DNA of 64,000 nucleotides, taken from contig CM055102.1 of NCBI GenBank assembly GCA_029204225.1, positions 39,507,014 to 39,571,013 on the forward strand. The letters are read 5' to 3'. Under the pieces are notes generated by a model, which was given only the letters and a program-made list of their open reading frames with translations, did not search any database and was not told the DNA's origin. Made by a program: the position numbers and the translations under genes. Shown piece by piece: positions 4,880-58,090 of this stretch. Source of the stretch: Diphasiastrum complanatum. Its lineage: Eukaryota > Streptophyta > Lycopodiopsida > Lycopodiales > Lycopodiaceae. Every line of letters begins with the position of its first letter. The first letter of the stretch is position 1.

Positions 4880-4932
4880 CTCTCCCTTAAAGTAGAGTCA
4901 CTTTTTATACAGTCATATACATAGCTTTAAAG

Positions 4933-5709
4933 TCAACAGACTTTAAATACAGAAAGATTTGATCTAAATTTATCAAACTTTTCTCCAGTAAGTGGCTTAG
5001 TGAAAATATCAGCTAGTTGTTCTTCTGTGCTACAATGAACAACATGAATTTCACGACTCAGCAGCCTCTCACGTATGAAGTGATATTGAATCTCAATGTG
5101 TTTAGTTCTCGCATGGAACACTGGATTCTTTGCTAGCTGAATGCCACTCTGACTGTCACTATGTAAAGTCATGGGATTTTTCTGCCTTATGCCAATTTCT
5201 TCCAAGATTTGTCTCAACCATATAGCTTCTTGTGCAGCACTACACATTGCCTTATACTCTGCTTCTGTGGTGGAAAGAGCAATTGTACTTTGCTTCTTAC
5301 TAGACCAGGAAAAGCAATTACAAAACTGGAATATATATCCTGTGGCGGATCTATGATCATCATAGTCACCTCCCCAGTCCGCATCCACATAGCCACACAA
5401 CTCAGGTAAACCATCATGCTTCCTGTAAATCAAGCCATACTCTGAAGTGCCTTTCACATAACGCAAAATGCGTTTAGCTGCTTTCCAATGCGATTCCGTA
5501 GGTGCTGCCATAAACTGACTTACAATGCCAACAACATAGCATATATCTGGTCTAGTTGTGGTAAGGTAAATCAAGCTCCCTACTAACTGTCTATATAGCG
5601 TAGCATCAAATGACTGTGATTCATCAAGCTTAGAAAGCTTTTTACCTGGTTCAATAGGAGTGTTTACTGGTTGCCTGCAACCTAAACCTGTGCAGCAACT
5701 CTTTGACAT
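4933..5709 (-). pseudogene. copia pol, RT C-terminus and RNase H
   Basis: 258 codons in the frame after a shift. It holds the RT thumb/connection (LVGSLIYLTTTRPDICY), then the copia RNase H: YVDADWGGD with the first catalytic Asp, SATGYIF, STTEAEYKAM with the catalytic Glu, LHSDSQSG, and the tail ARTKHIEIQYHFIRE...LADIFTKPL. It ends as usual just upstream of the polypurine tract. A frameshift near 5651-5709 separates it from the upstream pol, so the polyprotein is not continuous. Confidence 0.9.
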
Positions 5710-8293
5710 ACTTCACCTGTGTTAAACCCACTTCATGTCCTTTTTGCCACAGTTCTACTCCAAGGCAGTAATGCATCAGGCTGAGATCCGTCATCTCAAA
5801 TTGTTCCATGAGGTCTTTCTTGATCATGTCTATCATCTCTTGATTATAACCCGTAATAATCAAGTCATCAACATAAAGAGCAATCAAAGCAACCATACCA
5901 TCAAAGAATAAGACATATAGATTTGGATCAGAATGTGTTCTCACCATCCCCTTTGAACGAAAGTAGGCATCAATCCTGCTATACCACGCACGTGGTGCTT
6001 GTTTAAGACCATAAAGCGCTTTCTTCTAGTGACATACTTTATTTTCCTGTCCTTTCATTACAAAGCCTTCAGGTTGATTCATGAACACTTCTTCTTCTAA
6101 CTCACCATTTAGAAAAGCAGATTTCACATCTATCTGATGCAAAGGCCAACCAAAATGTGAAGCTAAAGCAATAAGTAGACGTAGAATATTCCACTTACAC
6201 ACCGACACAAAGGTCTCCTCATAGTCAATGCCTTTATTTTGTGCGTACCCTTTTGTTACCGATCTTGCTTTGTGTTTTGCTATGCTTCCATCTGCATGGT
6301 ACTTAGTTCTGTATACCCATTTGCAACCAATGGGTTTCTTGCCAACTGGTGGTTCTACTAAGTCCCATGTGTTATGCTTAGCAATTGACTCCATCTCCTC
6401 TCCCATGGCCTTGATCCAAATGTCATCATCCTTTGCTTCACCATAAGTCGAAGGTTCTTTGTTTTGAATAATGCTGGATAACAGAGCATAATTTGCTTCA
6501 TATCTTTCAAGTAGTATCTTCTCTCTTGTTGATCTTCGTAGCTCTCCCTGGTTAGATGATCCTGGAAAGTCATCTATATCGCGGCTCTCCATCAATCTCT
6601 CAAACCACTTAGGGAGCTTTCTGTCAGATGATCGGCTTCCTGGTGAAAATGTATCCCACGGTACATCCTTCTCCTTGCATTTGTCACCTGCAATTTCAAT
6701 CCTTCTTGCACCAAAAGGTTTCTCCCTACCTCTCCAACCTGTTTCATGAGGTTGAGTAGTAGTATCTTGAGATGTATCCTCATGTTCATAACTCGGAAGG
6801 TCAATGAATGGATCATCATCAGGTGGTATCCTCACTATACCATTTTTCCTACTGGATGTGTCTATCTTCTCAGCATCTTCGTTTTCATACATCTTGGATT
6901 CATCAAAGATAACATCTCGGCTTATATGGATTTTGTTTTCGACTGGATCAAAACATCTATAGCCCTTCATGCGATCATCATATCCTAGGAATATGCACTT
7001 GATAGCTTTTACATCAAGTTTACGTCTTTCTTCCTTAGGAATATGTACAAAGGCCTTACATCCAAAGATTCGCAAGTGGTTCACCTTTGGCTTCTTCTTT
7101 GTGAATGCTTCCTCAGGTGTTATTTTTGGTATGGCAATGGTAGGACTTCTATTTTGAAGATAGACTATCATGCTACATGCTTCTGACCAAAAATCTTTTG
7201 GTAATTTCATGTTAGCTAGCATAGATCTAGCACTTTCCACAATCGTACGATTTTTGCGCTCAGCTACACCATTGAGAGCAGGAGTATGAGCTTGCGTAAA
7301 TTGTCTTTTAATCCCACATTGATCACAAAGATCATTTAAGTCATTAGACTTATACTCACCTCCACTATCTGATCTTAGGACTTTGATCCTCTTACCTGTC
7401 TGATTTTTTACCAAGTTTTTGAAGTTCTTGAAGTTATCAAAAGCATCTAATTTCTTCTTCAAGAAGTAGATCCACGTCTTACGTGACATATCATCAATAA
7501 AGATCGTGAAATAGAAGGCTTTTCCTAAGGACATGGTCCTCATGGGCCCGCATAAATCTGTGTGGATTAAATCCAGGATGTTCTTTGCTCTTGCAGCACC
7601 CCCTTTATTGAACTTTTCTCGATGTTGCTTCCCATATATACAAGATTTGCACATCGATTCCAAGTGATCTGTGATAGGCAGTCTTGTTACCATCTCCAAT
7701 TTTCTCATCAAACTGAGGCTTCCCAAGTTCAAGTGACCAAGCCTCTTGTGCCACAACTTAGTTTGCGAAGGAACGGATAATACAAGTCCATGTTGCCCCT
7801 TGATTGTAGCATTCAACCTGTACAATTTTGTATTGGGCTCTCTTACTCCATTTACAATAAGTTTGAACTTTTGGTTCGCATCCTTCACAAAGCAACGATC
7901 ATGGGCGAATTCTACTTTCAACTTTTGATCAGTAATGACTCCAACGGAAAGTAGATTTTTCTTCAAACCTGGTACGTAAAATACCTCCCTGATCATCCTG
8001 CTTTTGTCATCAGGCAGTTGGATTGAAACTGTGCCTATCCCCTTGATCATGCAAACTTCACCATTTGCTTGTGAATTAGATGTCCCATTATCCAATGCCT
8101 TCAAACTACTGAACCAGTTCTTGTTACCTGTCATGTGTCTTGTGGCTCCTGAGTCAATATGCCATGCTTGATCATCTTGATTAGATGACAATGCAGATAT
8201 GAAGATGCTACAGTCTTCAACCTCACCTTCATTGACAAGGTTACCTGTTGTTTTGGTTTCCCCTTGCCTTGTTCCGCCAGGAATTTGCGACAT
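5651..8293 (-). pseudogene. copia pol: protease, integrase, RT
   Basis: One frame from 8293 to 5651, broken by a single TAG at 6026-6028 (between KVCH and KKALYGLKQAPRAWY). The protease signature is WHIDSGATRHMT (about residue 45). The integrase has the zinc motif LWHKRLGHLN...CKSCIYGKQ, the catalytic region HTDLCGPM, the Asp in SDSGGEY, and Glu in NGVAERKNRT. The RT starts KWVYRTKYHADGS, passes DVKSAFLNG, and has the catalytic YVDD near 5870. The encoded enzymes copy element RNA and integrate it. One nonsense codon and one frameshift are the only visible lesions in pol, so the insertion is fairly young. Confidence 0.92.
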
Positions 8294-8560
8294 TCACTCT
8301 TCCCGTGGCCCTTTTTACCACAATGGAAGCACTTGCCTTTCTTTTTTAGTTTTGCTGGAAGATCCCTCATCCTCCTGAGACTTGGCAAATTGCTGCTTGG
8401 TCTTATTTTTGCCCTTGCCCTTGCCTTGTTTTTGGCGTGTTGCAAGTGCCTGATCATCAGTATTTTGACGTCTAGCTTTCACCATTTCTCATCGTTGCTC
8501 TTCCTGCATCAAGATTCCTGTGAGCTCGTCAAAGCTTGGCAATCTTTCTCTTGATGCTAT
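8131..8560 (-). pseudogene. copia gag C-terminal part
   Basis: The zinc knuckle CFHCGKKGHGKSEC (C-x2-C-x4-H-x4-C) is preceded by a basic linker and the SFDELTGILMQEEQR-type helix of copia Gag, spread over two frames. Everything N-terminal is missing: the sequence runs into a 28-bp direct repeat (8612-8639 and 8648-8675) and then the truncated LTR. An internal deletion therefore removed gag's start and the 5' leader. Confidence 0.85.
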
Positions 8561-8680
8561 TCCACTCACAAACATCTAATAGGGTCCTACAATGCCGCAT
8601 AATGCATTATGCACCAGCTCCACATCACGTATGCGCTCTCCAATAGAATGCGGTTCATCACGTATGCGCTCTCCAATAGA

Positions 8681-8915
8681 ATGTAACACAGACAGAAAAT
8701 CATTCTCCTCAGCAAGCTCACATAGCAACTATAATTCTCAAAATGAAATTACACTGTACATATAGTTGTTCACTCAGGCAACCCATGCATGACCCAGGTT
8801 GCCGTTGGCGGGACGCGTGTCCCGTCGACTTGCCTCGTGGCGAGGCCAGCTGATCCTTATCCATTGATAGGACCCACAGTACAGTAACACAATGATTCTA
8901 ACTTTAAGTCTAACT
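8681..8915 (-). repeat. 5' LTR of nested copia (inner end deleted)
   Basis: About 90% identical to 4660-4879. The coding-strand start AGTTAGACTT adjoins the right TAAGG. The part equivalent to 4604-4660 is absent, and gag sequence follows instead. Confidence 0.85.
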
Positions 8916-9530
8916 TAAGGGACATGTCAAAATACAAAAAGATGAAAAGCTTTTTGGAAAATTAGGAAATATGCCAACTAAGCCAAGCATCGGAGGAGCA
9001 AAAGCACGTCGATTCCTATCAAACCATACTGGTAAGGATTCAAAAATTCAACACTCAGTCTGGAAAGAAATAGTTGCTGCCACTGAAGACTTAGGAGTGA
9101 CCGGCAAATCAAGATTATTGAAAGTTGATGTATGGAGAAAGCTTGACAATATGATTAAGATATTAAGAAAAGACAAATTTTCTGATACTGATAAGAGAGA
9201 TTTACAAAAGACTTGCATCGATTTTGTTGATGTAGTATCAAAAGCATGGGGAGAAGATCACATCACTCATTACATGGTTAGTATGCATGATCAGAGCAGC
9301 CATCAATTAAATTATATATTTTGATCCAAACATAAGACTGACATTACGATTTTGACATGTGCAACACATTCTAAGAGATCATACAACATTTTTTGCAAAC
9401 ACATATGGAAGCCTAAGTGTCTGGTCATCACAAGGGATAGAGGAGTCACATTGTCAAGCACGAGTAACATTTCATCAGAATACACAGCATGGAGGAACCA
9501 ATGAAAAATGAAACTATATTTGCCAATTAT
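8916..9530 (+). pseudogene. transposon X1 delta: putative transposase C-terminal part
   Basis: This continues from 4572-4603 across the copia insertion. The protein reads KGHVKIQKDEK...GGAKARRFLSNH...IQHSVWKEI, and matches 38608-39503 (minus) throughout. An intron lies at 9277-9364: donor GTTAGT as in X2, but the acceptor is GCAA where X2 has GCAG. The next exon reads HILRDHTTFFANTYGSLSVW, then SSQGIEESHCQAR, where a Glu plausibly ends a DDE triad; this Gln-Gly-x-Glu context is common to RNase H-fold transposases. Later stops truncate the tail. Assignment to DDE transposases is inference from general layout, not a firm family match. Confidence 0.6.
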
Positions 9531-9700
9531 TTTAGTGGTTCTATCGTAGAGTTCAAATTCGACAGATCACAAAATCTTCAAATTATGACAAATTCAGAAA
9601 AGCTTGCAAATTTATTGAGCAACATAGAAGCTAAAAATTCAGAGATACAAAGTTGCTACAAATGTAAATTATATTCACAATTTTCAATATATACAAATCA

Positions 9701-10217
9701 TCATTCAGAAGTATCTGATTCATCCTCTTGTCCAATTGTTGTGCTATCATGCAGTAATTCTCGACTTGCATATGCATCCAGAAGATGCGCATTGTCCTTG
9801 TTACCACTCAATTCTATATATGTTGCATACAATGAATAATGGGAACTCCTTAATGGTATATTTCCATCTACAAATCCTAATATGTTTAAAACAACACTAA
9901 CGTTTGCCATAGCCCAGTATAAACATTCCCACCAGTCATAATTCCCTCCTCACCATCATAGTCAATGCTCGGCACTAAGTCTTTGATTTCAAAATCAACA
10001 ATGTCAAAGAACTCAGTAATGGTGCTTGACAATAAACAAAGCACCGTATCCTCACGATAATTGAAAAAACACATAAATTTGTCGTTGTAATATACACATC
10101 TTCAATAATATAATATTTTGGCAAATCAAAAAAGCATTTAGAATGTACTCTAGCAATATCTTCCTTAGTATTGGCATTAGAGCCAATGAAAGACGTGTGC
10201 AGCCGTATAGGATGCAT
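9701..10217 (-). pseudogene. transposon X1 gamma remnant, unknown protein
   Basis: Three minus-strand frames match gamma of X2 (36964-38445) in order: SFIGxNxxxxED around 10.19 kb, YREDxVLCLLSxTIxEF around 10.02 kb, and the C-terminus RSSHYSLYATYIELSGNKD at 9701-9910. The N-terminal half and a central ~300 bp are deleted. Function unknown. Its C-terminus is the best-conserved part between copies. Confidence 0.65.
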
Positions 10218-10229
10218 GTGTCACATTCT

Positions 10230-10720
10230 GATTAGTTGTCGCTTGACACGTGTTGTAGGATGATTCGATAAAAATATTCCACGTGTGAATCCGTACAAGA
10301 GTCATGTGTCACATTCTGATTCGTTGCCGTTGACACATGTCGTAAGATGATTCAAAAAAATATACCACATGTGTAAAGCCATGTGTTGCATTTTGATTGG
10401 ATGCATTTGACATGTGTCGATGGCTGATTTGTAACTTTTCAGACACGTGCGGACGGCACGTGTGACCACACACGTGCGACTACACACGTGCAAAAAAATC
10501 GTTTACACATGTTCGTGAGCTCAAAGTCCATTCACTTTTCTTCTTCCGTTTTTCATGCCATATCGCTTCTCTGCGCAAGCTCTTTCCTCCATGATCTCTG
10601 TCTCCTTCTGTGTGCGCACAAGAGCAATATTACTGCCGTACATATTGCTTATGTGTGCGGTTAGCTTTCTGTCTCTTTTTTTTTGTTTTTCACATTCGCA
10701 CAAGAGCGATACGTCCTAGA
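10230..10720. promoter_or_regulatory. divergent gamma/beta intergenic region with CACGTG array
   Basis: CACGTG palindromes at 10247, 10280, 10444, 10457, 10471 and 10485 are mixed with ACATGTG variants. Copies of GCGCACAAGAGCAATA-like sequence follow at 10611-10630 and 10695-10711. The same two motif families occupy the equivalent interval of X2. CACGTG is the core bound by plant bZIP and bHLH factors (established); regulation of this transposon by them is inference. Confidence 0.6.
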
Positions 10721-10728
10721 CTGCCCTC

Positions 10729-12532
10729 ATGTATAGGGTCAAACGAAATCGGAAGGATTTCTTCTCTCCTTGGGATGTATCCACTAGTACCCCTGCTGTT
10801 AAAGGCTCCATGGCAGACCAGGCGTAATAAGAGCAAATGGATCTCTGAGATTAAGAAATATCAGAGATCCACCTTGCTCCTGATACCCAGAGCCCCTTTC
10901 TACAGAACTGTGCGTCTGATTATCCGAGATAATCTACAGAGTGTTGTCAGGTTTGCACTTGGAGCACTGCAGTGTTTGCAGGAGTCCGCAGAGGACTATT
11001 TGCCTCTTTTTTTGAGGATTCTTTTTTGCTTTTCATCCATGCCAAGCGAGTGACTATAATGCCCAAAAATTTTCAAATCCTATATAGAATGAGGGAGAGA
11101 TTTTGTAGACTTCACAAGGGTGAACCTGATGCTCCCCGAGACAAACCCCTTGATAGGACCAACCTACCCACCAAGAGGCCTTGCAAGCAACCTGCCCCCA
11201 GAAGGAGCAAGCCATCCTCTTCTCAGGCTCCCAAAAAGGTCCGACGTATGACCCTCCAAGCTTCCACATTTGGAGATGATGGAATTGTAAATATTGTAGC
11301 TCTTGATACTGTGGTTGATTCAGCCATCAAAATTTTGGACATTCCCTCCATTGTAGATACTCTCTTGCCTCCTCCCGTTAATGTCAAACCTGTAGCATTA
11401 GATTCTGCTGATTATTTAAAGTTTGAGAAAGATATTTCAGATGCGTAGATAGTATAGGCATGCCAATCCTCTTCCAAATAAAAGAGATTGGTTTTACTCT
11501 TAATTTTAGAATTCCAGATTGCTTGCAGATGAAGGATAGAAAGGCCTCTATTAGCGATCCAGTGATTGAGGCTGGTCTCCCCTTACTGCAATATGATATA
11601 GTAGGGGATTCCATGAAAGAAGTGGCACTTCTCAGCAATTTTTCCCTACAAGGCATCAAGGACAACAACGACACTTTGTCGCACTGTATCCTTGGTGCTT
11701 GCTAGCTCGCTATGAAGTTTTTGTTGATGTCATATCATACCAAGTATGTCTATCTCTTTACTTGTCAAATTCATTATTTGTCTACTTCTTTACTTGTAAT
11801 TACTGTATCGTTTATCTAATGAAATCCTTCATGATTTTTTGTAGTGATTACTGGAGCTTAATTGTAATTTCTGTAAAAATCACAGATAATAATATCGTAA
11901 ATCTTTTTTGTGTAAAGATGAATTCTGCCAGCAACACACATAAGGATATTGACTCGCTGCTGCCGGAGATATGTAAATATTTTTCAATAGAGAATCACAC
12001 GGCAGAGAAATGTGAAATTGTGAGCATTGAGGTAATCATTGACCATTTCTGGTGTATTTTTGTTTATCATCATTGTTAAGCATCAGTACCTTCATCCCAT
12101 TATTAATCAATTGAATGTATTGTAGACACCCCAACAAAATGACTCATTTAGCTGTTTGTATGCAAAATCCACAAGGCGCTCTACAGGCTGAAACAGTCAC
12201 TCAGATCTTGGTTCGTATACAATGCAAAGTATTTTTCCAGTGGTAAAATGTTCAAGAGGATGTTGATATTTCAAAGGTGATTTATTAGCCCTTTCTATTT
12301 TATCTTTATGTAAACTATTGTTTGTTATTAATATTCATCTAGTACGACGTTTATTGCAGTTTGCCCTCGGTGACTATACTGCTGGCGAAGTGTACAGATT
12401 TCAATAGGAGATCATTCTTAGTCTATTGGCCAGGTCAACTACTGGACCAAAGACTGATGTTGGCCCGCCTAAGCCAGACGATGTTCAAATTTTAAATGAG
12501 ACTGGGCAATTTGTAAATACCCAAGCTGAATA
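10729..12532 (+). pseudogene. transposon X1 beta: histone H3 core fused to ULP1-type protease
   Basis: Starts at ATG 10729 (MYRVKRNRKDFFSP). After an indel near 10.82 kb comes a full H3 histone fold: SEIKKYQRST, LLIPRAPF, VRF, ALQCLQESAEDYL, then FFEDSF and IHAKRVTIMPKN. A 7-T run (11007-11013) shifts frame inside it. A basic Pro/Lys linker follows, then a C48 (ULP1/SENP) protease: ISDPVIEAGLPLLQ (substrate-groove helix), exon junction 11743/11845, NDYWSL (His replaced by Tyr), exon 2 end 12031, and exon 3 from 12126 reading TPQQNDSFSC with the Gln and catalytic Cys (12153-12155). The tail FALGDYTAGEVYRF is typical of ULP C-termini. Family role: ULP1 enzymes cut SUMO-like modifiers. This copy is broken by stops, at least TGA 12189 and TAG at 12406. 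Confidence 0.8.
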
Positions 12533-12677
12533 GATAGACATATAAACATATAGAAATAGAACTATAGAGATATAGACATACAGAAACAAAATCATTTGAA
12601 CAGATGTACAAAATCCCCAAATTTCGGTGATCTCTTATTGAATACAGATACCAATTTGTATCATTGATTGTATGAAT

Positions 12678-13870
12678 TTTCATTGTTCTTTGGCAATGTT
12701 AATATCTGTTGGAAGATCCTTGCAGGGTGTTGTGTTTGTCTTTTTCGTATTTGCATGAAAGATAAGCAACTTGTTAATTTCTCTATTCTCTAATAAAGTT
12801 ACATATATGATCATTGACTGATTTACAAATCAAATTAATATCTTACGAGCTTTCCATTGATAATGAATCTGAAGTGTTCTAGTAGAATTTCATTGTGCAT
12901 TAAGACCAGCTCTTGTCTGATATAACTCAAGCTCCAATGATCCTCCACTATAATTGTAGTTAGCATATCTTCATCGTTGAAAATGTGGACTTCTTTTTTA
13001 TCTATGTGATCATCCATTTGAAGGTCTTGATCGAGTGGCATCCATGTCTCACTTATTCGTTTCCATCTTTGGTAACTGAATGTAAGACTAAGCATTTGTC
13101 TTGCAATGCGATAACAAAATATCATAGATGATTTCTTAATTCTACATTCAATATCTCCAACTGCCTTGCATTCCCAACCCACATCCATCAGATCTGAAAG
13201 AGTGTCATCTGGCACATCCTTACAAACAAATAATGTTGGTGTTCTACCAACATTTGCATTTGAAAAAAAATCTTCAAATACATATAAGGATAGGAACCAA
13301 CTTAATCTATTGACTTTTGATCCAGTGCTAGCTTTCATTGAGTTTTTCAAATCTTATAGTAATTTCCATCTAAAAGATTCTGACACCATAGGTGCAAGCC
13401 ATTCATCACTTCCAAAATGTGGCAGTGGTACTCAAGCTTTCAGAAACCTCCATGCATATCTGGAATGTACTTGGACTCAGAAAAATATACCACTATCTGC
13501 AAGCTCCTCAGTTGTCTGAATGAATCACATCCAATATACCTGCTAGGGATTGTGCTGGCTCCCATTCGCTTATGTTGGATGGACATAAATCTGCAAGAAT
13601 GCAATACATATATGATAACTGATATGATTTCAACAAGTTTCAAAAGCATGAATGTTATAATATATGAATCTTTGCTTTCCAATATGATTTGAATGTCATC
13701 TTTGCTTTCTTTTTTGGTCTAAACATGCCTTTTAAGGATGGATGCAGTAGAACCCATGAGTTTTTTATATATCCTGTTGGTTTCCAAAATCCGGCATCAT
13801 CCTTCTCATTGTGAAGAATCATTGATTCAATTTTAGATCTTGGTCTCCTGGCCATACCGATTGCTTCCAA
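12678..13870 (-). pseudogene. transposon X1 alpha: unknown protein, ubiquitin-like tail
   Basis: Pieces at 13655-13870 (MARRPRSKIESMILHNEKD...), 13400-13570 and 12835-13350 align with alpha of X2. An intron acceptor TTGCAG lies just before the exon reading LCPSNISEWEPAQS. The C-terminal domain has the beta-strand/helix/FRFIINGK-L pattern of ubiquitin-like folds, interrupted by a GTAAGA donor at the Leu codon as in X2. The final exon near 12.68-12.76 kb has a GCAA instead of a CAG acceptor. Frameshifts separate the pieces. Function unknown. Confidence 0.6.
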
Positions 13871-14321
13871 AGTTTAGTGCCAAATTCTCGAATCTATGAA
13901 ATGCCAAATCGACTCAATGTTATATGACACTTATTCAATGTGAATGGATAACTAGACCACAGTAACAACATGTGGTAACTATGCTCACTGTCTAATTGTG
14001 ATGCATGTCACCAATTCCTATGCATGTGATGACTTACTATTGGCAAACTTGTGTAGTTTGAAATTTATGAACATATTAACCAGTGATTAAATAATTAACT
14101 AGAGACAATGTCGTCGGGCAGATTCACATGTTCAAGACAAACACTATCCACTAATAGCATTTTTCCATCCTGCCCAATGACAAATTCAAAATTTTTAAAA
14201 GTTAATTTTTATAACTTTATTATTTCTATCTACGTTGCATAGATTTCAAATATATGCAATTTCATTGGGCCACATGGCGGACGAAACTAAGAAAAAAAAA
14301 TAAAAAAAACATCTTCAGGAA

Positions 14322-14353
14322 GGGTCTTTTTTTATTTTGAAACTCCTCCAATG
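14322..14353 (-). repeat. right terminal inverted repeat of X1
   Basis: On the minus strand it starts CATTGGAGGAGTTTC and ends with AAAGACCC, closely matching both X2 ends. The subterminal T-rich tract and GGCCCAATGAAA block are also shared with X2. Confidence 0.8.

Positions 14354-17929
<3,576 letters not shown>

Positions 17930-25251: not shown

Positions 25252-25256
<5 letters not shown>

Positions 25257-25321
<65 letters not shown>
25257..25321. repeat. (CT)n microsatellite, ~65 bp
   Basis: Perfect CT run ending directly at CATGGACTCTTC, the start of hairpin repeat B. Confidence 0.98.
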
Positions 25322-25323
<2 letters not shown>

Positions 25324-26690
25324 GGACTCTTCTTTATCAAAATTTACCACCCTTGCTCATGCTATAAACAAACATATATGATTTGATGGTCCTAAACTTT
25401 GTTGCCTACCCAACCTTTTTTGATACTTTTCAAAATATATTTTCCCACCATTTTTGGCTGAAAGGGAGCTTCCACGACACTTCCTACGAAACCACTATAT
25501 GTAACCTGTTCTCGAATGAGTTTTTTCTACTACATGGTGAGAAGAAGGTTGGAAGAGATGGCGCCCTCCCTAGCTTGAAGTTATCTACTTTAACTCTGCG
25601 GTATGTGGTTCTGCTCGTTTCATGTATTTGCATCCATCTCTTGTATACTTATGAAGGTTATCAAGTGTTCTAGATGGTAAATGTGAAGGTATGAATTTGT
25701 TGTCCAGCGAGGGTTCATACAACTTTTTTGGCATGACATTCCCTTCAAATAGTAGTCGTTGTCCAGCAATGGAGCAGCGATGAGGCTTACTCAAATATGG
25801 AGAAGCTTGTTGAAGATATATGAGTTGTTGTCCAACGATGTATTTTGAGCAAGATACTCAAAAAGTTGATATATATGGTAAGTTGTCCAGCGATGGACCA
25901 GTGATGAATCAATGGTTCCTTCCACATACTTTATAAAGCATGATAATGATAGTTATGCATCACATATGGTAGGTTGAGAAAAGAGCTTCATAATGACCAG
26001 CGATAAAGCACTTCTTATCTCATGAATGGTTGTATGGATTCAAACTCCTTATCATAAATATGAAAGGATGATAGTTTGGTTTGTTAACTACAGTTTACAA
26101 TATACTTTACTATCCTTCAAAGGACAACATGGATGTGTGGTTGTTCCATAAGTAACTAAAGGTTACATACATACTCCAGAGACGAAGCTATTGTAGTATC
26201 ATGATATTATACTAAAGATACAACTCAGACATTGGCACATTATGATTATGATTAGTATACCTCATGTTGTAACTGGTTTCATTATCATGCTTGTGAATGA
26301 CTGCTATTTCAAAGGAAATACTATTGTGTTTAAGCACTAACAAATAAAACTTGCACTCTTTGTAGCATCGAATATTACTACTATCTTCATTTTCGATTAG
26401 GTTCGGTTTCGAACCATAAAGCTATAACTGTTTGCGTAGGTATGCACATTAGACCATTTGCTTCAGATTTGTATAAGCAATGAGTAGTAGGCTCTCCTTA
26501 ATGTACTTACTATCGGTTTCACAATGGCTGACAATAACGTTATGAACGGTTTAAGTCTAAGAAAGGCAAGAGCACTCGAGGGACTAAACATGGCATCCTC
26601 ACAAGAAACCACTGCTACAATCATCCAGGTATGAGTTTTCCCAAGGTTAATAACAATCCTAAACACAGAATTTAGTTGGTTTCTACTCAG
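25321..26690 (+). repeat. hairpin repeat, copy B (longest single copy)
   Basis: Matches 55648-58090 from CATGGACTCTTC to CCTAAACACAGAATTTAGTT. The stem-loop GTCCA-GCGA-TGGAC lies at 25885-25898, with further diverged GTCCA(A/G)CGA units between 25.70 and 25.99 kb. No shared open frame is long enough to suggest a protein. Near the 3' end is an intron-like CAGGTATGAG context around 26.63 kb. Possibly a non-autonomous element or the untranslated tail of a larger one. Confidence 0.65.
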
Positions 26691-32614: not shown

Positions 32615-32647
32615 GCATTAGAGGAGTTCTCAATATCAAAAAGACCC
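32615..32647 (+). repeat. left terminal inverted repeat of X2
   Basis: GCATTAGAGGAGTTCT through AAAAAGACCC. Identical over 33 bases to the reverse complement of 39825-39857. Confidence 0.95.
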
Positions 32648-33080
32648 CTTGTAAAGATACTTTTATTTTTTTTCTTTAGTTTCGACCGTCACCAGGCCCA
32701 ATGAAAATGCACAGATTTGAAATCTACGTAACGTAGTTCAAATTAACTAAAAAATAAAAATGCAATATAGAAAACTTTGAAATTTGTGTCCGGGCAGCAT
32801 GGACGTATCCCATTGGTCTTTTTCCTGCCCGACACGTGCTAATATGCCGGACGTCAATATCTCAAGTTAAATTTACTTTACTATGCTGGTTAGTATAATG
32901 AATTTTTCTAACTATACTAGTTACAGTTATAGAAATATAGTATGTACAGTTACATAAAATATGGTATACGCAGTAACTGTGACTATGTTGGCATTCACAT
33001 TAGATTAAATGTGATATGAAAAATTTAAAATCAAGTAACATATCAGAGAAATTTTTGGCGCCCAAGCTTTGAAAATAGCA

Positions 33081-34378
33081 ATGGCGAGGAGACCCAGATC
33101 TACAATTGATTCTGTGATTCTTTACAATGAGAAAGATGAAGCTGATAACTGGAAGCCAACAAAATATACAAAGAACTCATGGATATTGCTGCATCCATCA
33201 TCAAAGGGCAATTTTCAAAAAAAGAAAAGAGCAAAAATGACTTACAAATCTTATTGGAAAGCAAAAATTTTGGAGTTTAAGACTACTCCGGGAGATCAAT
33301 CGATATCAGAAGTCTTAGTAGTATATCAAAACATATGCACTCTACAGCAATCATAGGTGATTTCCTTTATTGATGCTCTTCGGATTATGATTTAAATGCT
33401 TCAACATTGTTTTTTTCTTTCAAATTTATATCCATCATGCATAAGTAAATGGGAGCCCGCACAATCACTTGCAAAAATATTAGACGTGACTCACTCTGAT
33501 GTTGGAAAGCTACAATATAGAGGAAGAAGTCCAAAGGAACTTGCAGATTGTGGTATCTATTTTTATGAATCTTTATATACACCACAAACAGATGGAGGTT
33601 TTGGCAAGCTCGAAGCAATTCCATTGCCTAGTTTTCAAAGTGATGAGTGGCCTACTCTTGACAGCATTGTTTCTGAATCCTTGAGATGCAAGCTACTCAT
33701 TGATATTAAAAATGCTATGAAGATAAGCACAGGCTCGAAAATTGTTCACCTAAATTGGTTTATCTCATTGCATACATTTGTTGATTTTTTCTCAAGTGCT
33801 AGTGTTCGTAGGACACCAACTTTATTTGTTTGCAAGGATTTATTAAATGAGACTTTGTCAGATCTCATGGATCAAGGCTGGGATAGTAAAACAAATAATG
33901 ACATAGAATGCAGGATTAAAAAGTCCTCAATGATCTTTCGTTATCATATCGAAAAACAAATGCTCAGTCTCACATTTAGCTACCAGAGATACAAGAAAAT
34001 TGAAGGTACATGGCTACCACTAGATCAAGCTTTGAACTAAATGGTCACACAAACCGAATGGAGATAAGCATTATCTACAATGAGGAATATTTGACTATGG
34101 TTGAGGTGGAAGAGCACTGGAAGCTTGATTTTATCAGAACAGAGCTCATGCTATTACAAACCAATCTACCAACATATTTCAGATTTATCATCAATGGAAG
34201 ACTTGTAAGTACTTTATGTTTATTGCCATTTCAAAATAGAACAAAATAATAGAAAATGTCATCATTTACAATTGCACATTCACTAATATTTGCCATGCCA
34301 CAGATGCGAAAAAGACAGGAGCTGATAACGTGCTGCAAAGATCTACCTACAACAATCACCATTGTGGGAGAACAATAG
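33081..34378 (+). pseudogene. transposon X2 alpha: unknown protein with ubiquitin-like C-terminus
   Basis: ATG 33081 gives MARRPRSTIDSVIL, followed by a basic region (KKKRAKMTYKSYWKAK). An intron follows around 33.35-33.43 kb whose acceptor is CAA, where X1 has CAG. The long middle exon (ISKWEPAQSLAKIL ... IECRIKKSSMIF) runs to 34039. A last domain, in another frame, reads MEISIIYNEEYLTMVEVEEH ... FRFIINGRL. An intron 34205-34303 (GTAAGT/CAG) leads to the final exon 34304-34378 ending TTITIVGEQ. The last ~75 residues have the strand-helix-strand pattern of ubiquitin-like folds but no terminal GlyGly. No enzyme motif seen. A TAA at 34040 and the frame change show decay. Function unknown. Confidence 0.65.
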
Positions 34379-34497
34379 TTTCGAATAAACTTTAGTAAAA
34401 ATCTGTGTGTACACCCTTTCATTCAATAAATGAAAGCCCAAGTTGGGCATCTATACATGTATTTTTGTTCTATGTTATCTATATTTTTTCTGATCTT

Positions 34498-36225
34498 AAT
34501 TTAGTACAACTACATCATCCTTTGCACCATCATCAATAATGGGAGGCTGAAGCCTTGCCCGAGCCAATATACTCAGGATAATTTCTTGTCTAAATCTGTA
34601 CACCTGGCTTGATGTGTACTTAGGAAGTGTAAACTGCAAAATAGAACATTCACGTATTAGTAATGGCCAATAACATCACCAGAATAGAAAACTAATCATG
34701 ATTCCAAAATAAGAATAAATAGAATTTATTACCTTAGAAATATCAACATCTTGTTGAAGGATGAACCACTCAAAAACAGCTTGGCATTGTACAATGTGTA
34801 TCACCCACAGCTGAATGAACCATTTTGTTGGGGTGACTGCAAAATAATTCAACACACAAGAAATCAATTATGAAACAAAATGAATTAGATTGAAAATATT
34901 TCATTAGAATACTGATTTCAAAATGCCATTAAGAAAGAAGAGTTTACCTCCAAGTTGACAATCTGCCAGTCCACGGAATGGGGAATGTCTGTAGGAATAT
35001 AGTTACCTAGATATGGAATGAATATATCTACATCCTTATGCGTATTTCTCGCCGAATTCATCTTGACACAAGAACATTTAATAATATTATTTACAGATCT
35101 CTTAATAGAGATCAGGTTTAAACTCCAATGGTCACTACAAAATAAGATTGAAAGTACTTTAGCGGCAATTCTGAGAACTATTTAAATTGAAAATGTCAAT
35201 GTTAATGCATAAAATAGGAAGAAGCACTTAATATATCTTACTTGGTATGATAAGGAATGACCAGATACTTTGTTGCTGGTGTGAATCCACTTGTCAGACA
35301 CTGTGACAATGTGTCATTATTCTCCTTGAAAGCCTGGAGCAGAAAGTTACTCAGCACCAACAACTCGTTTGATGAATCTCCTGCAATGTCAAATTGCAAG
35401 AGTGTCAGCCCGGACTCTATCACAGGATCACTGATAGAAGCCCGTCTGTCTTTGAGATCCAGACAATCTAGAACTCTAAAATTAATACTAAAATCAAGTT
35501 CTTCTAGTCTAAAACAAAAAGGAGTACCAATTGTATCTATAGCATCCGATATGTCTTTCTCAAATTTAAGATAATCATCCGAATCTATATATGTATAGAA
35601 ATTGGGAGGCGGAGGAGGAGGAGGTGGAAGTGTAGTATCTACAACAATATTAGGAGTATCCAAAATAGAGGTAGCTATATTTACAACATTATCAACAGCA
35701 GCATTATCTACAATGGATTCTGGGATAGGCTTCACTTTCTTAGGAGCACGCTTGGGGGCTGTCTGCTTCCTAGGACGCCTTGTAGGAAGATGAGTCCTAT
35801 CTACAAGAGTTGGTCTAGGAGCAGCAGGCTGAGATACATGTAACCTACAGTACCTATCCCTCATTCTCATCAGAAGCTGAAAATCCTTGGGCATTATGGT
35901 AACCCTCTTGGTATGGATGGCAAACAAAAAAGAATCCTAAAAAAAAAGACTAATATAATCTTCAGCAGCCTCCTGAAGGCACTAAAGAGCACTCGGTGTG
36001 AATCTAACGTGCTGTCCGAGATCATTTCTTGTTATGTTCCGGATAGCACAGTAGAATGGAGCTCTTGGGATCAACAGAGTTGTTGACCTCTGATACTTGC
36101 GTATCTCAGAGAGCCACCTGCTGCGGTTGCGCATTCTAGGTCTAGCAAGGGGTGTGATGGCAACCCCAGGAGATGAGGATGAGTCAGGAGAGAAGAAGTC
36201 TCTCCTTACCGCTATGTACGGACAA
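34498..36225 (-). pseudogene. transposon X2 beta: histone H3 core fused to ULP1-type protease
   Basis: Exon 1 (about 36225-35242) has a short tail, then an H3 fold in one frame: RWLSEIRKYQRST, LLIPRAPF, CLQEAAEDY, IHTKRVTIMPKD, RMRDRYCRL. Two TAG codons replace conserved Gln and Glu. Next comes a basic linker (RRPRKQTAPKRAPKKVK), an acidic/Pro region with eight prolines, and the protease start ASISDPVIESGLTLLQ. Exon 2 (35134-34948) reads NDHWSLNLISI with the catalytic His. Exon 3 from 34836 reads PQQNGSFSCG with oxyanion Gln and catalytic Cys (34809-34807), then TGA. Exon 4 (34633-34498) reads FTLPKYTSSQVYRFRQEI. The usual Asp is not evident (KMNSARN). H3 folds bind DNA with H4; ULP1 proteases remove SUMO-like modifiers. 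The combination is seen in both X copies. Confidence 0.85.
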
Positions 36226-36279
36226 AATGTACGGTATATCAGACCTATGCGAGCCGAATATCAGAGAGAACGATTAGAT

Positions 36280-36950
36280 TTGAGAAAAGATGCACAAGTG
36301 CGATATGGGGTGACACATAGGAAGATGTATCGGACCTGTGTGCATGGAAGGTAGTAGGAGGAATTTTGATCGTGAAAGGTGCGCACAAATGCGATATGCG
36401 GAGCGAAAAAAAAAAAAGTGAAAAAAATTTATCAAAATTTGTGATTTTATATCGGGGATCGCACGTGCGAAAGAACATCATGTCACACGTGTGGGAGTTG
36501 TACGGACAAATGGAGAGCAACACGTGTCACTCTGTCACACTACACGTGTGGGATTTGTACGATCGAATGCGAGAGCGACACATATTTATAAGCACTCGAA
36601 TGAACACACGACACATGTCTAGGTGTCATTTCACACGTGTGCAGGTGTCATCTCACACGTGCCTGCGCCTGTTGTCGAATTGAAAGTAGACATGTGTCAT
36701 AAGGCCGTTGACCACACATGCAAAAATTTAGTATAAATGGCACGAAAACCGAATAATTTTTTACCTTTTGCGTTCTCGAAATTCACGACATATCGCTTTT
36801 GTGCGCGTTCATTTTTGTCCGTTTGCTTGTAAGTATACCTACTCGCGCACAAGTGCAATATTCTGTATCTGTCTGCCATACATATCCATCTTCTGCGCCA
36901 TTTTGATTGTTAGTTTTGGTTCAGTTCTCCCGTGCACACAAGTGCGATAT
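36280..36950. promoter_or_regulatory. divergent beta/gamma promoter with CACGTG array
   Basis: CACGTG at 36462, 36486, 36521, 36543, 36634 and 36656, spaced 22-91 bp. A second motif, GYGCRCAAGWGCGATAT, occurs at 36291, 36381, 36790 (inverted), 36845 and 36932. X1 has six CACGTG and related copies of the second motif in the corresponding interval, although the surrounding sequence differs. Confidence 0.65.
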
Positions 36951-36963
36951 TCACGCTACTGCC

Positions 36964-38445
36964 ATGGCCTCTTCCTCATCATCCTCACAAGAATCAGGCT
37001 TGAGTTCATTTCTGAGTGAATTTGGGATTACTGAAAATCTGGACTAGTTCCACAGTCTATTCAGGCCATATCTGCATGTTTTCAGGACTGCACAACCAAA
37101 TTCTGACGTATTTTATGAACATTATGTCAGATTCAGAGATATATTTAGCAAGCCTATTTTCTCCATAGGTCAACTCCAGTACATGCATTATACTGATCTT
37201 GTTCATTTCTTCCCAGCTTTTAGACATAGACTGGATAGAATGTTCACCAAATTGTTTGATCTTTCCAAAAGTAGTTCTATGTGTCCGTATTGCAATAAGA
37301 AATGTCGATTGGTTGAATATCATAGTGGTTTCGTATTTTTTCTTTTGATTCAGATCCCAGATGATGATGAGTTTCTTGTTGCTGACCCTTCTTTTGCACC
37401 CTCCTCTGTTCAGTTAACCATTAAGGATATCAGTCACTTTCTTATCGACACTCCTGATAAAGAAAGTGACTTCATTGATTTAAATATTGATGTTCTCCGA
37501 GATTCTTTCATTGGCCAAAATACATCTGATGATGAATCCAAATCTATGGAGGATTCGAAATGTCTTTTCAATTTGTCTGTATATTATATTAATGATGATG
37601 TATATTTTACTACTGCTGATTTATGTAAATTTTTTGACTATCGTGAGGACGAGGTTCTATGTTTATTATCCGGCACAATTTCCGAATTCTCTGACTTTGT
37701 AGATTTTAAGACAGATGACCTTGTTGCTGGTATTGATTTTGATGATGAGGAGGGTCTTATGACCGGTGAAGAATGCCTGAATAAGACTTTATCAAATATA
37801 GCTGAGGATGGGCGAGGCAGACCATCCGATGAAGAATGCACGGCATTTCAATCCCAGATGGGCTTCTCTCGTCCATCATTAATGCATTTCACTGATTATT
37901 CCACTTCAGTATGTGGTCATTATATTGATCATCTTGATCTGGTTGTTGTTGATGATGAAGAATGTGTAAGTGTTTAATCTTCCTTGCATTTGAATATTTT
38001 CAATCACTGAATGTGTTTTTGCTAACATATTTCCTATTGTAGGATGCTCTCATAATAGGTGATTTTGCTGCGAGACGAAGTGGTTTTAGACAACACGCAT
38101 TCTCGTTCCAGAGGGACAGTGGACTGGGCCACTATCTTCGGCATTTATTGAAGAGTGAGATCTGTATTGCTCATTCCAAGCTGAGCCCAGTCGGGGAGAG
38201 TCTTATAATGGCAGTTAAAGCTTTATCATTTTATTTAGGAGGACATAAATTTGTTAAGACAAATAAGATCATTTTTGTCAAAATATGTTTTGAACATTTT
38301 AGGCGTTACTGATGGGAATGTTCCTTTAAGGAGCTCTCATTATTCATTGTATTCCACTTATATTGAGCTTAGTGGAAATAAGGATAATGCACATCTATTA
38401 GATGCATACGGTAGCAGAGAATTTTTTCATGACATACTATCATAG
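36964..38445 (+). pseudogene. transposon X2 gamma: unknown CxxC protein
   Basis: ATG 36964 begins MASSSSSSQESGLSSF. An early TAG (about 37045) interrupts, and the frame continues with FRPYLHVFRTA. A CPYCNKKC motif lies near 37290. A long acidic middle (DDEE, DDESKSMED) follows, with YREDEVLCLL and DFDDEEGLMTG. An intron at 37966-38042 (GTAAGT/TAG) joins in frame to DALIIGDFAARRSGF. A frameshift near 38.28 kb leads to the conserved C-terminus RSSHYSLYSTYIELSGNKD. About 450 residues if repaired. The CxxCxxxC motif suggests one zinc site. I do not recognise the family; a role as a second transposition protein is conceivable from its fixed place in the element. Confidence 0.65.
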
Positions 38446-38607
38446 AATCTGATACAAGATCTGATGATGAATAGTTGACACTTTGTATAATACAATCAAT
38501 ACATCTACATTGGGTATTGCTCCTCTCTTGTTCAATGTATTTGCAAATCAATTTTGAACATGTCATGATGATCTTCTACTTAGCAATGATGATCTTCTAC
38601 TCAACAA

Positions 38608-39770
38608 TCATCTCATTTTCTCTTCCTGTATGAACTTGCATGCTTTTCTAAACTTGTTGTATTGTGTGGACTTTGTTATATGTCGAATCTGAACTCTGCA
38701 GTAAAACCACTGAAACAATTGACAAATATAATTTCGTTTTTCATTGGTTCCTCCATGTTGTGTATTTCGATGAAATGTTGCTCGTGCTTGCCAGTGTGAC
38801 TTCTCCATCCCTTGTGATGACCATACACTCAAGCTTCCATATGTATTTGCAAAAAATGATGTATGATCTCTTAGTATGTGCTGCATATGTCAAAATCATA
38901 ATGTTAGTCTTATGTTTAGATCTAAATATATATGAAAATTTGAAAGCATTTTGAAAATTTTATACTAACCATGTAATGAGTGATGTGATATTCTCCCCAT
39001 GCTTTTGATATTGCATTAACAAACTCGACACAAGTCCTTTGGAAAGCTTTCTTATCAATATCAGAGTATTTTTCTTTTCTTAAAATAGCAATCATACTAT
39101 CAAGCTTTTTTCATACATCAACTTTCAGTACTCTGGTTGTGCCGTCTTTCTCGAAGTCCTGAGTGGCAGCAATAATATCTGTCCAGACTGAGTGTTGAAT
39201 ATTAGAAGCCTTGCCAGTATGATTTGATAGAAAACGACGTGCTTTTGCTCCTCCTATGTTTGGCTTAGTTGGCATGTTCCCATTCTTTCCTAAAAGTTTT
39301 TCATCTTTTTGAATTTTGACATGTCCTTTATGGAGTCCTGCTTTTGATAAAACATCTTTTAATCGAGAGATAGCTTCCTTTGCTAATGATGTTGGCTTAG
39401 TATTCCAAGCAAAAACTATATGAAGATGAATGATCTTTTCTATTAATCTAACTTCTGCATGAAGAGTGCAAACATGCACATTTTTTAAGGGGATAGGCAG
39501 CACAGGCTTCCAGTTTGGATCTGCATATTCTCTAGTAATTCATGTGCTCCTAGTTACATCTTTTGCCATTTTCATGCAGTACAAACAAGGGTGTTTTGAT
39601 GTAGCACCGTGAGAGACATTATACATACATTTCAATGTTTTCAAATCACCTGCTAAGTGTCATTCAACATTGAAGTCTCCAACTCCTAGAACATTGAGAA
39701 ATCCTCCATCCATATGGTCCTTGATGATCCTAGGATAAGATGTCCTTGAGAATATCCAAGCAAATAAACA
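38608..39770 (-). pseudogene. transposon X2 delta: putative DDE-type transposase
   Basis: Starting about 39770 (minus): GFLNVLGVGDFNVE, then LAGDLKTLKCMYNVSHG, HPCLYCMKMAKD (CxxC insertion), LPIPLKNVHVCTLHAEVRL, KARRFLSNHTGK and HYM. An intron at 38881-38969 (GTTAGT/CAG) leads to HILRDHTSFFANTYGSLSVW and SSQGMEKSHWQAR, ending EEKMR. GD near the front, an inserted CxxC with a His-Ala-Glu helix, and a late Q-G-x-E are compatible with an RNase H-fold transposase. Similar layouts occur in uncharacterised invertebrate transposon proteins, from memory. The first catalytic Asp region is deleted at the right end of X2. A stop lies at the codon before ITREYADPNWKP. Confidence 0.6.
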
Positions 39771-39824
39771 ATATTATTTTATTTATTTTAATATTTTTGT
39801 ATATCTTACATGGCATTCCTTAAA

Positions 39825-39857
39825 GGGTCTTTTTGATATTGAGAACTCCTCTAATGC
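39825..39857 (-). repeat. right terminal inverted repeat of X2
   Basis: Reverse complement identical to 32615-32647. Confidence 0.95.

Positions 39858-55587: not shown

Positions 55588-55592
<5 letters not shown>
55526..55592. repeat. short inverted repeat next to RT end
   Basis: GCAGTTAGCT/AGCTAACTGC separated by 13 bases (about 55519-55551), followed by CCCCTAAGGG. It sits between the RT stop and the CT tract. Confidence 0.5.

Positions 55593-55647
<55 letters not shown>
55593..55647. repeat. (CT)n microsatellite, ~55 bp
   Basis: Perfect CT run again ending at CATGGACTCTTC, the edge of the hairpin repeat. Confidence 0.98.
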
Positions 55648-55649
<2 letters not shown>

Positions 55650-58090
55650 GGACTCTTCTTTATCAAAAATTACTACCCTTGATCACGCTATAATCAAACA
55701 ATTATGATATGAGGGTCCTAAACTTTTTGCCAACACTTGTTTTGATACTTTTTTAAAAAGAATTTTCCCATCATTTTTGGTTGAAGGGGAGCTTCCATGA
55801 TACTTCCTACGAAACCACTATATGTAGTCTGTTCTCAAAGGAGTTTCTTCTACTTTACGGTGAGAAGAAGTTTGGAAGAGATGGCGCCCTCCCTGGCTTG
55901 AAGTTATCTGCTTTAAACTCTACGGTATGTGGTTTTGCTCGTATCATGTATTTGCATTCATCTCTTGTATACTTATGAATGTTATCAGATGTGGTTGATG
56001 ATAAATAGGAAGGTATGAATCCGCTGTCCAACGATGGATCAGTGAGGGTTCATATTACCGTTTTTGGCATGATTTTTACTCCATATTCTATCCGCTATCC
56101 AGCGACGGACCAGCGATAAAACTCACTCAGTAATGGAGAGTCTTCCTGAGGATGGATAGATTGTTGTCCAGCGATGGACCTGCAGCGATCTATCTAGAGC
56201 AAGATAGTCAAAATATTAATACTTATGGGTAGTTGTCCAGCGATGGACCAGTGATGAACCAAGATTTCCTTCTGCATACTTCAAAAAGCATGATAATGAT
56301 ACCTATACATCGTGTGTGATAGATTGAGGCAAGTGCTTCATTATGACCAGCGATGAAGCATTTCCTATCTCATAAATGGTTATATGAATTCAAACTCCAT
56401 ATCATAGATATGAATGGATGATAATGTGGTTTGTTAACTATAGTTTACAATATGCTTTACTATCCTTCAAAGAACAGCATGAATATGTGGTTGTTCCATA
56501 AGTAACTAAGGTTTACATACATACTCTAGAAACGAAGCTACTATAGTATCATACTATTATTAAAAGATACAACTCAGATGCTGGCACATGCTAATTATGA
56601 TTAGTATACCTCATGCTGTAACCAGTTTTCTTATTATACTTGTGATTGATTGCTTCTTCACAGAGAAGACTACTATGTGTAAGCACTAACAAATTAAAGT
56701 TGCACTCTTTGTAGCATCGAATATTACTACTATCTTCTTTTTCAATTAGGTTCGGTTCCGAACCATAAAGCGATAAGCGTTTGCACAGGTATGCACATGA
56801 AACCAATCGCTTCCATGATACTTCCTACGAAACCACTATATGTAGTCTGTTCTCAAAGGAGTTTCTTCTACTTTACGGTGAGAAGAAGTTTGGAAGAGAT
56901 GGCGCCCTCCCTGGCTTGAAGTTATCTGCTTTAAACTCTACGGTATGTGGTTTTGCTCGTATCATGTATTTGCATTCATCTCTTGTATACTTATGAATGT
57001 TATCAGATGTGGTTGATGATAAATAGGAAGGTATGAATCCGCTGTCCAACGATGGATCAGTGAGGGTTCATATTACCGTTTTTGGCATGATTTTTACTCC
57101 ATATTCTATCCGCTATCCAGCGACGGACCAGCGATAAAACTCACTCAGTAATGGAGAGTCTTCCTGAGGATGGATAGATTGTTGTCCAGCGATGGACCTG
57201 CAGCGATCTATCTAGAGCAAGATAGTCAAAATATTAATACTTATGGGTAGTTGTCCAGCGATGGACCAGTGATGAACCAAGATTTCCTTCTGCATACTTC
57301 AAAAAGCATGATAATGATACCTATACATCGTGTGTGATAGATTGAGGCAAGTGCTTCATTATGACCAGCGATGAAGCATTTCCTATCTCATAAATGGTTA
57401 TATGAATTCAAACTCCATATCATAGATATGAATGGATGATAATGTGGTTTGTTAACTATAGTTTACAGTATGCTTTACTATCCTTCAAAGAACAGCATGA
57501 ATATGTGGTTGTTCCATAAGTAACTAAGGTTTACATACATACTCTAGAAACGAAGCTACTATAGTATCATACTATTATTAAAAGATACAACTCAGATGCT
57601 GGCACATGCTAATTATGATTAGTATACCTCATGCTGTAACCAGTTTTCTTATTATACTTGTGATTGATTGCTTCTTCACAGAGAAGACTACTATGTGTAA
57701 GCACTAACAAATTAAAGTTGCACTCTTTGTAGCATCGAATATTACTACTATCTTCTTTTTCAATTAGGTTCGGTTCCGAACCATAAAGCGATAAGCGTTT
57801 GCACAGGTATGCACATGAAACCAATCGCTTCAGATTTGTATAAGTTATGAATGATAGGCCCTCCTTAGAGTACTTATTATCGCTTTCGCAATGGCTAACA
57901 ATAACGGTATGAACGTTTTAAGACTAAACATGGCATCCTCACAAGAGACCACTGCTACAATCATCCGGGTAAGGGTTTTCCGAACAATTTTCAGATTTTG
58001 CAAACATCACCTATGCTCAAAAGGTAAGGTATCTCTTCACGGATATATTCCATTCTAGGTGACTAATAAAGATCCTAAACACAGAATTTA
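55648..58090 (+). repeat. hairpin repeat, copies C and D (tandem)
   Basis: Homologous to 25321-26690 and, inverted, to 14354-15283. Bases 55791-56808 and 56809-57826 are a 1018-bp direct duplication; I found one difference (AATATGC/AGTATGC). The junction uses the shared pentamer GCTTC. Stem-loops GTCCA-GCGA-TGGAC lie at 56166, 56235, 57184 and 57253. It adjoins the Penelope-like RT across the CT tract, so it might be that element's 3' part; other copies have no RT beside them. Confidence 0.8.

Follow-up and report, generated by a model that had tools for sequence, protein, structure and literature searches.

A DNA transposon with a histone gene of its own raises the question of what such a gene does for the element, mobile elements being restrained largely through histone and DNA marks. 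The window, i.e., the whole stretch of 64,000 nucleotides from Diphasiastrum complanatum analysed here, contains two copies, X2 and X1, of a gene in which an earlier note had recognized a histone H3 core followed by a ULP1/SENP-like protease inside a transposon. Our analysis confirmed this observation, and its interpretation, that a transposon protein able to enter nucleosomes and strip SUMO might open or target chromatin, was partly supported.

The H3-ULP gene in the window

The two window copies comprise the following features.

About 36206-34496, minus strand: X2 H3-ULP gene overall, the window gene under study
35242..36206, minus strand: X2 exon 1, with H3 core, basic/proline linker and start of the protease region (from PF00125, reading frame and exon end)
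34948..35134, minus strand: X2 exon 2, 187 bp, with DHWSL and VKMNS
34733..34836, minus strand: X2 exon 3, with SPQQNGSFSCG, one stop and a 1-base gap
34496..34633, minus strand: X2 exon 4, with stop
10729..12532, plus strand: X1 H3-ULP copy (ends as given in the earlier note; exon 2 at 11845-12031; tblastn)

The H3 pieces of both copies exceeded the 26.4-bit cut-off of the Pfam Histone profile (PF00125), that of X2 at 35982-36260 on the minus strand with 1.4e-8 and that of X1 at 10685-11053 with 5.8e-10, which bears out the H3 fold first read from the letters and excludes an H3 region below threshold. The pieces containing the last helix scored slightly under this cut-off (21.6 and 25.7 bits). 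Exon 2 measures 187 bp in both copies (11845-12031 in X1, 35134-34948 in X2), as had been reported, which supports a fusion older than the split between X1 and X2. When the window protease exons were scored singly, no match to Peptidase_C48 (PF02902) was obtained. The two protease motifs named at the outset, HWSL and PQQNGSFSCG, are both legible in X2, although exon 3 is interrupted by its stop and gap; X1 has DYWSL replacing DHWSL, a change of the catalytic His to Tyr, together with a frameshift. X2 is broken by two in-frame TAG codons in the H3 frame and lacks the start-codon region of exon 1, with a gap at 36206/36208. A frameshift within the H3 part of X2 was considered and rejected, since a single frame carries both TAG stops. 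X2 and X1 are dead gene copies.

The element and its ends

The claim that the gene lies inside a transposon was upheld, as an element with terminal inverted repeats encloses X2 H3-ULP.

32616..39856, no strand assigned: X2 family-A element, 7241 bp, internally deleted, with identical 32-bp inverted ends
32616..32647, plus strand: X2 left terminal inverted repeat (exact 32-mer genome count)
39825..39856, minus strand: X2 right terminal inverted repeat (identical to the left end at all 32 bp)
33084..34207, plus strand: ORF1, exons, partly broken (tblastn)
37009..38433, plus strand: gene 3 (tblastn)
38683..39767, minus strand: transposase-like gene, 3' remnant (tblastn)
8916..14353, no strand assigned: X1 element, terminus at 14353, with an extra matching piece at 4460-4543
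About 4649-8915: Copia-like insertion interrupting X1

Terminal inverted repeats are present at dispersed copies, as expected of a DNA transposon. Genome-wide, 1147 exact copies of the 32-bp end were counted (582 + 565 on the two strands, with 0 + 0 for the reversed control), a number that is partly inflated because some ends have been multiplied by segmental duplication. The internal deletion in X2 removed the 5' part of the transposase-like gene. A fuller relative, the C2 copy, measures 9305 bp from end to end, and its genes are arranged as ORF1 (+), H3-ULP (-), gene 3 (+) and the transposase-like gene (-). Pieces of the latter from L014, L012 and the C2 copy, which do not cover the whole protein, had no Pfam match above cut-off, and the one piece searched had no PDB match. 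These pieces thus show no recognisable transposase domain of the hAT, MULE, KDZ or CACTA kind, and the element is for this reason not placed in a known superfamily. Comparison of the flanks at seven end pairs, made to look for a target site duplication, gave a 3-bp match (TCA) at one of them. An insertion target preference, considered in view of end clusters on C1 (64.9-66.7 and 95-100.6 Mb), was rejected: 20 flanks were fetched, and the 19 readable ones formed three groups of 12, 2 and 5 members with 92-100% identity inside each group, which identifies these clusters as segmental duplications.

The Copia-like element has 231-bp end repeats at 4649-4879 and 8685-8915 that are 96% alike. Elsewhere in the window, repeats at 25253-26644 and 55591-57984 match 14348-15352, which adjoins X1, and a direct repeat pair at 55791-56813 and 56809-57831 is 99.9% alike.

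Copies in the genome and the joined gene

The genome searched comprises 1.74 Gb in 5176 contigs, and the PF00125 profile search gave at least 153 matches (150 scored among 6325 first-look candidates), from which 20 loci were chosen for long open frames, seven of family A (the window type) and 13 of family B. One family-A locus, L017, encodes an uninterrupted 470-aa conceptual product across four predicted exons. Its spliced product matches Histone (1e-27) at residues 27-123 and Peptidase_C48 (1.1e-10) at residues 316-442, the latter with 42.2 bits against a cut-off of 20.7, or 44 bits when the protease part was scored alone. The earlier note's reading of H3 and C48 in one frame thus holds in L017, above both Pfam cut-offs, while in the window both copies are interrupted.

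The C48 match falls mostly in exons 2 and 3 of L017, and because exon 1 holds only residues 316-327 of it, the fusion depends on the exon 1-2 junction. This junction is bordered by GT..AG, preserves the reading frame and lies between the same motifs in families A, C and D. The H3 core, the linker and the stretch preceding the first protease intron constitute one open frame in 24 stop-free family-A copies. PF00125 scores were 97-105 bits in family A and B copies and 84 and 87 bits in C and D, the best PDB matches of the histone part were H3 chains in the three families queried (A, B and D), and the best PDB match of the ULP part was an Ulp1-like SUMO protease (E 0.001). Families A, C and D have a joined H3-C48 gene, with a junction that is predicted.

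The exon 1 query from L017 (327 aa) revealed at least 122 family-A matches (122 scored of 9916 candidates), almost all of them spanning the whole query, a number far above chance; 24 of the 122 scored are free of stops, including the query's own copy. With a family-D query at least 120 match rows were obtained (112 scored of 9491 candidates), eight of them full-length and stop-free, again with the query's own copy included. The stops in family-A exon 1 copies are TAG in 162 cases, TAA in 16 and TGA in 14. Decay by CHG methylation was considered as the cause of this TAG excess and rejected, and no context bias can be claimed from it because the exon has 11 CAG codons to one CAA. A genome-wide PF02902 search, read exon by exon, gave at least three matches (150 scored of 520 candidates). 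Scanning viral contigs once with the family-D exon produced five pattern matches, none of which was confirmed as a relative.

The active site is H-N-Q-C in family A, and likewise in the single copy read from each of families C and D. Instead of the His-Asp-Gln-Cys of C48 proteases, families A, C and D have Asn at the catalytic Asp position of Ulp1, with His, Gln and Cys kept, and judging from this replacement protease activity may be altered or absent. Single copies have lost further catalytic residues, namely L016 (Cys to Tyr) and, as noted above, X1 (His to Tyr).

Four families of histone-carrying elements

Sequence comparison distinguishes at least four histone-carrying element families (A-D), each with the same neighbouring transposase-like gene. 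Families A and B have all four element genes in common (tblastn), with the block of the H3 gene and gene 3 inverted in B relative to A and the orientation of ORF1 and the transposase-like gene unchanged (C2 element and L012). At the four of 13 family-B loci that were tested, the fusion query matched the H3 core only (tblastn). Families C and D surfaced through a search with a CENH3 core, and L051 is a further C copy; the transposase-like gene adjoins the histone gene in L051 and in the D copy L048. In both families the H3 core, linker and stretch preceding the protease intron share one frame. Exon 1 of family A aligned over its length with C (30% identity, E 1e-38) and with D (29% identity, E 3e-36), and exons 2 and 3 of A match the DNA downstream of exon 1 in both, where the protease motifs read KHWSV and QQDDAFNCG in C and KHWSM and QQEDGHSCG in D. 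A separate locus, L049:714-1886, has a 391-aa open frame in which an unrelated upstream part precedes a family-B H3 core.

The histone tail

The host H3 tail contains eight lysines, at positions 4, 9, 14, 18, 23, 27, 36 and 37. K4 is the sole tail lysine in L016, L017, L026 and L027 (A), L046 and L047 (C) and L048 (D). One lysine besides K4 occurs in the A copy L028 and the C copy L051, and the D copy L050, with a shortened start, has one lysine. Left out of our tail table were the A tails of L014 and of two L022 copies (stop after K4), one L022 tail having a further lysine; among the 13 A, C and D tails seen, extra lysines are thus confined to L028, L051 and one L022 copy. In family B, L009 has K4 as the only lysine in its first 60 residues and several other copies have at least one more. 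When the hand-chosen copies L017, L047 and L048 were pooled, their tails contained no lysine beside K4 and 23 arginines, compared with 18 lysines and 24 arginines in their linkers (Fisher p 7e-5 pooled; 0.013, 0.044 and 0.14 singly).

The exact H3 start ARTKQTAR was found in six of the 13 family-B loci, the other seven differing by one or two letters (the search tolerated two), and also in L051 (C) and L048 (D); family A starts with DRRKQTRR. An upstream in-frame ATG in family B may bury the H3 start. Taken together, the predicted tails mostly begin as in H3 and retain K4, and most of the remaining lysines, among them K9 and K27, are missing. Drift may account for the lysine loss.

Selection on the H3 core

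Comparison of two family-A subfamilies (4 + 3 copies) put dN/dS lowest in the H3 core, at 0.12 (bootstrap 0.05-0.23), followed by the tail at 0.21 (0.07-0.67); the linker reached 0.54 (0.27-1.15) and the ULP start, where selection is not clear, 0.47 (0.23-1.12). All values are biased down by the choice of copies for H3 score and open frame. The sample included L014 in shortened form (frameshift) and excluded X2. Within the subfamilies the values were 0.52 for the core (0.24-1.46) and 1.59 for the linker (0.80-4.23), as expected of decaying copies, and eight family-B copies compared with one another gave 0.36 (0.18-0.72) for the core. Synonymous divergence was uneven across regions, with a dS of 0.53 in the core and 0.11 in the ULP start, for which we offer no explanation. 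X1, which had not been chosen by score or open frame, differs from L017 over the H3 core with pS 0.73 and pN 0.23. The alignment further revealed that R83, H113, K115, R116, T118, D123 and L126, which we take to be interface positions, are kept in all four families. Purifying selection seems to act on the H3 core.

Origin of the histone

The CENH3 rows of our alignment and tree are provisional, and comparisons with them are to be read accordingly. Residues in common with the plant CENH3 rows are P63 (A, B, D), A65 (A-D), T75 (A, C, D), T85 (A, B), L89 (A, C, D) and W84 (C, D); a longer loop 1 is clear in C only, and RW is found in C and D only. Columns that are CENH3-like and not H3-like number 10 in A, 11 in B, 11 in C and 12 in D, against 3, 4, 5 and 2 columns that are H3-like and match no CENH3, a count that tilts to CENH3 because a match to any of the three CENH3 rows suffices. 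The best tree joined the transposon rows with the provisional plant CENH3 rows, with weak support (72/66), and a single clade of transposon and H3 rows was disfavoured (p-AU 0.036), likewise with provisional CENH3 rows. On the other side, identity to H3 is 53.6% for A and 55.1% for B, compared with 46.4% each to the provisional Arabidopsis CENH3 row; H3-like letters occur at P121 (A, C, D), at R131 (A, B, D) and in the end of B; and the 60 listed PDB matches of A, B and D include no CENP-A chain. We place a CENH3-type origin of the element histone somewhat above even odds.

Host CENH3 itself was not found in our genome searches. Its candidates were rejected as H3.3-like (L043, L044, L052, L053) or as members of family C (L051) and family A (L054). 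The H3.3-like host genes L052 and L053 (C20), L043 (C22) and L044 (C7) bear introns, and the two on C20 have altered letters in the tail or core.

Possible functions of the gene

Based on these results, we give a probability of about 0.4 to the explanation that H3-ULP is an anti-silencing device encoded by the transposon, captured and kept by DNA transposons of families A-D. An anti-silencing role was our first guess because in Arabidopsis the VANC proteins encoded by transposons make related elements lose DNA methylation (PMC5735166) and the KIU genes of Kaonashi elements combine VANC with Ulp1 (PMC13317346). In the proposed sequence of events, a group of DNA transposons would have acquired a gene of H3 type, perhaps one related to CENH3, and retained it as a gene of their own, and in families A, C and D the acquired histone would have been joined to a ULP1/C48 cysteine protease. 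The histone fold would pair with host H4 and enter chromatin with a tail that could not be methylated at K9 or K27 but could still be methylated at K4, and for this reason the patch of chromatin would resist silencing. The tethered protease would strip SUMO from local silencing proteins, and the element would be expressed and able to move. The fully specified version, in which a CENH3-derived histone with K4 and without K9 and K27 acts with a deSUMOylase so that chromatin cannot be silenced in the usual way, we regard as doubtful. The odds of the mechanism were reduced a little, since the joined gene depends on a splice site prediction and some results oppose a CENH3 origin. Counted against the anti-silencing explanation as a whole were the Asn at the catalytic Asp position, the catalytic residues lost in L016 and X1, the absence of a protease match in family B, the few matches of the genome-wide PF02902 search, the choice of copies and uneven dS behind the dN/dS values, the unclear selection on the ULP start, the possible drift of tail lysines, the DRRKQTRR start of family A and the upstream ATG of family B.

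A role as an accessory of transposition, unconnected with silencing, in which the histone fold would wrap the element termini or bridge them while the protease processed or released members of the transposition complex, seems unlikely. It would suit a gene that sits among the other element genes, all four of which A and B have in common, and Ulp1 domains recur in other plant transposons according to the available text of PMC13317346; however, the kept H3 N-terminus and H3-H3' positions have no obvious need in such a role, and B shows no protease.

Less probable again is a histone mimic or decoy acting off chromatin, with the ARTKQTAR tail occupying H3K4 readers, writers or H3 chaperones. The first eight residues are those of host H3 in the B, C and D copies listed above while the cores differ, and B retains tail and core on either side of a long insert, yet selection on the core points to a folded, H4-paired histone and family A starts with DRRKQTRR.

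We consider it improbable that the protein mimics CENH3, placed in centromeric chromatin or its loading pathway for insertion targeting or passage through cell division. The shared residues (P63, A65, T75, L89, W84), the longer loop 1 of family C and the tree with its p-AU test speak for such a mimic, whereas the provisional CENH3 rows with weak support, the higher identity to H3, the PDB matches without CENP-A, the failure to find host CENH3, the H3-like P121, R131 and B end, and the origin of the C1 end clusters in segmental duplication speak against it. Passenger capture (transduplication), in which an H3 piece is carried and multiplied with no function for the element, has a documented precedent in the capture and later decay of H3 in fungal hAT elements (PMC6710886, in the part available) and agrees with stops in 98 of 122 exon 1 copies, but is less probable still given the core dN/dS of 0.12, the pS of 0.73 against pN of 0.23 in X1, the histone kept next to the same transposase-like gene in four divergent families, and the intron that A, C and D have in common behind one and the same protease motif.

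Should the anti-silencing explanation be true, the element's own histone, without sites for the marks, would attack the substrate of silencing and not the silencing enzymes. Such elements would be a natural experiment on whether tail lysines themselves silence a transposon, and a histone-guided protease might be usable as a tool.

Comparison with known systems

The nearest published precedents, as far as their accessible text describes them, are hAT elements of Pseudocercospora fijiensis and relatives that carry histone H3; in P. fijiensis they have an 8-bp target site duplication and a full length of about 9.5 kb, and the H3 gene was carried, multiplied and inactivated by RIP (PMC6710886). 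The lycophyte elements resemble them in terminal inverted repeats and in an H3 gene that is carried and multiplied, and differ in the protease fusion, which the published hAT-H3 descriptions do not include, in showing neither a hAT transposase nor the 8-bp duplication, and in an H3 core with apparent purifying selection across divergent families in place of RIP-inactivated copies. H3L of Pyrenophora tritici-repentis, a further fungal case of H3 carried by hAT elements, has tail insertions and, in the text available, completely matches neither H3 nor CenH3 (PMC3538342).

Kaonashi/KIU genes are described as Ulp1-bearing VANC genes of VANDAL elements (non-TIR MULEs), the role of Ulp1 in KIU being unknown (PMC13317346, in the portion available). 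As in that description, a gene of a plant transposon couples a ULP1/C48 domain to a second module; the partner here is a histone and not VANC, and, unlike the non-TIR MULEs, the elements end in inverted repeats, and they gave no match to a recognised transposase. P63, A65, W84 (C, D), the diverged tails and the longer loop 1 of C are shared with CENH3/CENP-A, in contrast to the many-copy transposon gene, the joined protease (A, C, D), P121, the higher H3 identity and the ARTKQTAR with which copies of B, C and D begin. With Ulp1/SENP (C48) proteases the gene shares a PF02902 score above cut-off, HWS[LVM] and QQxxxxxCG, and it departs from them in the Asn for catalytic Asp and the N-terminal H3.

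No H3-protease fusion in a transposon was found in the open-licence full text searched. The remark that no transposon with this gene had been described therefore stands for the fusion within that literature, and does not extend to its parts, as fungal hAT elements with H3 and transposons with Ulp1 are in print. What is new here, relative to the text of these sources available, is the H3-protease fusion and the reduced tail.

The end of the neighbouring ORF1 (33396-34207 in the window; L012:2674-3309) gave a PB1 match below cut-off in the family-B homologue (E=0.14), and a structural model of 172 aa, too poor to be relied on (mean pLDDT 44), has a strand-strand-helix-strand-strand pattern. The end of ORF1 is perhaps a ubiquitin-like fold (PB1/beta-grasp) neighbouring a ULP protease.
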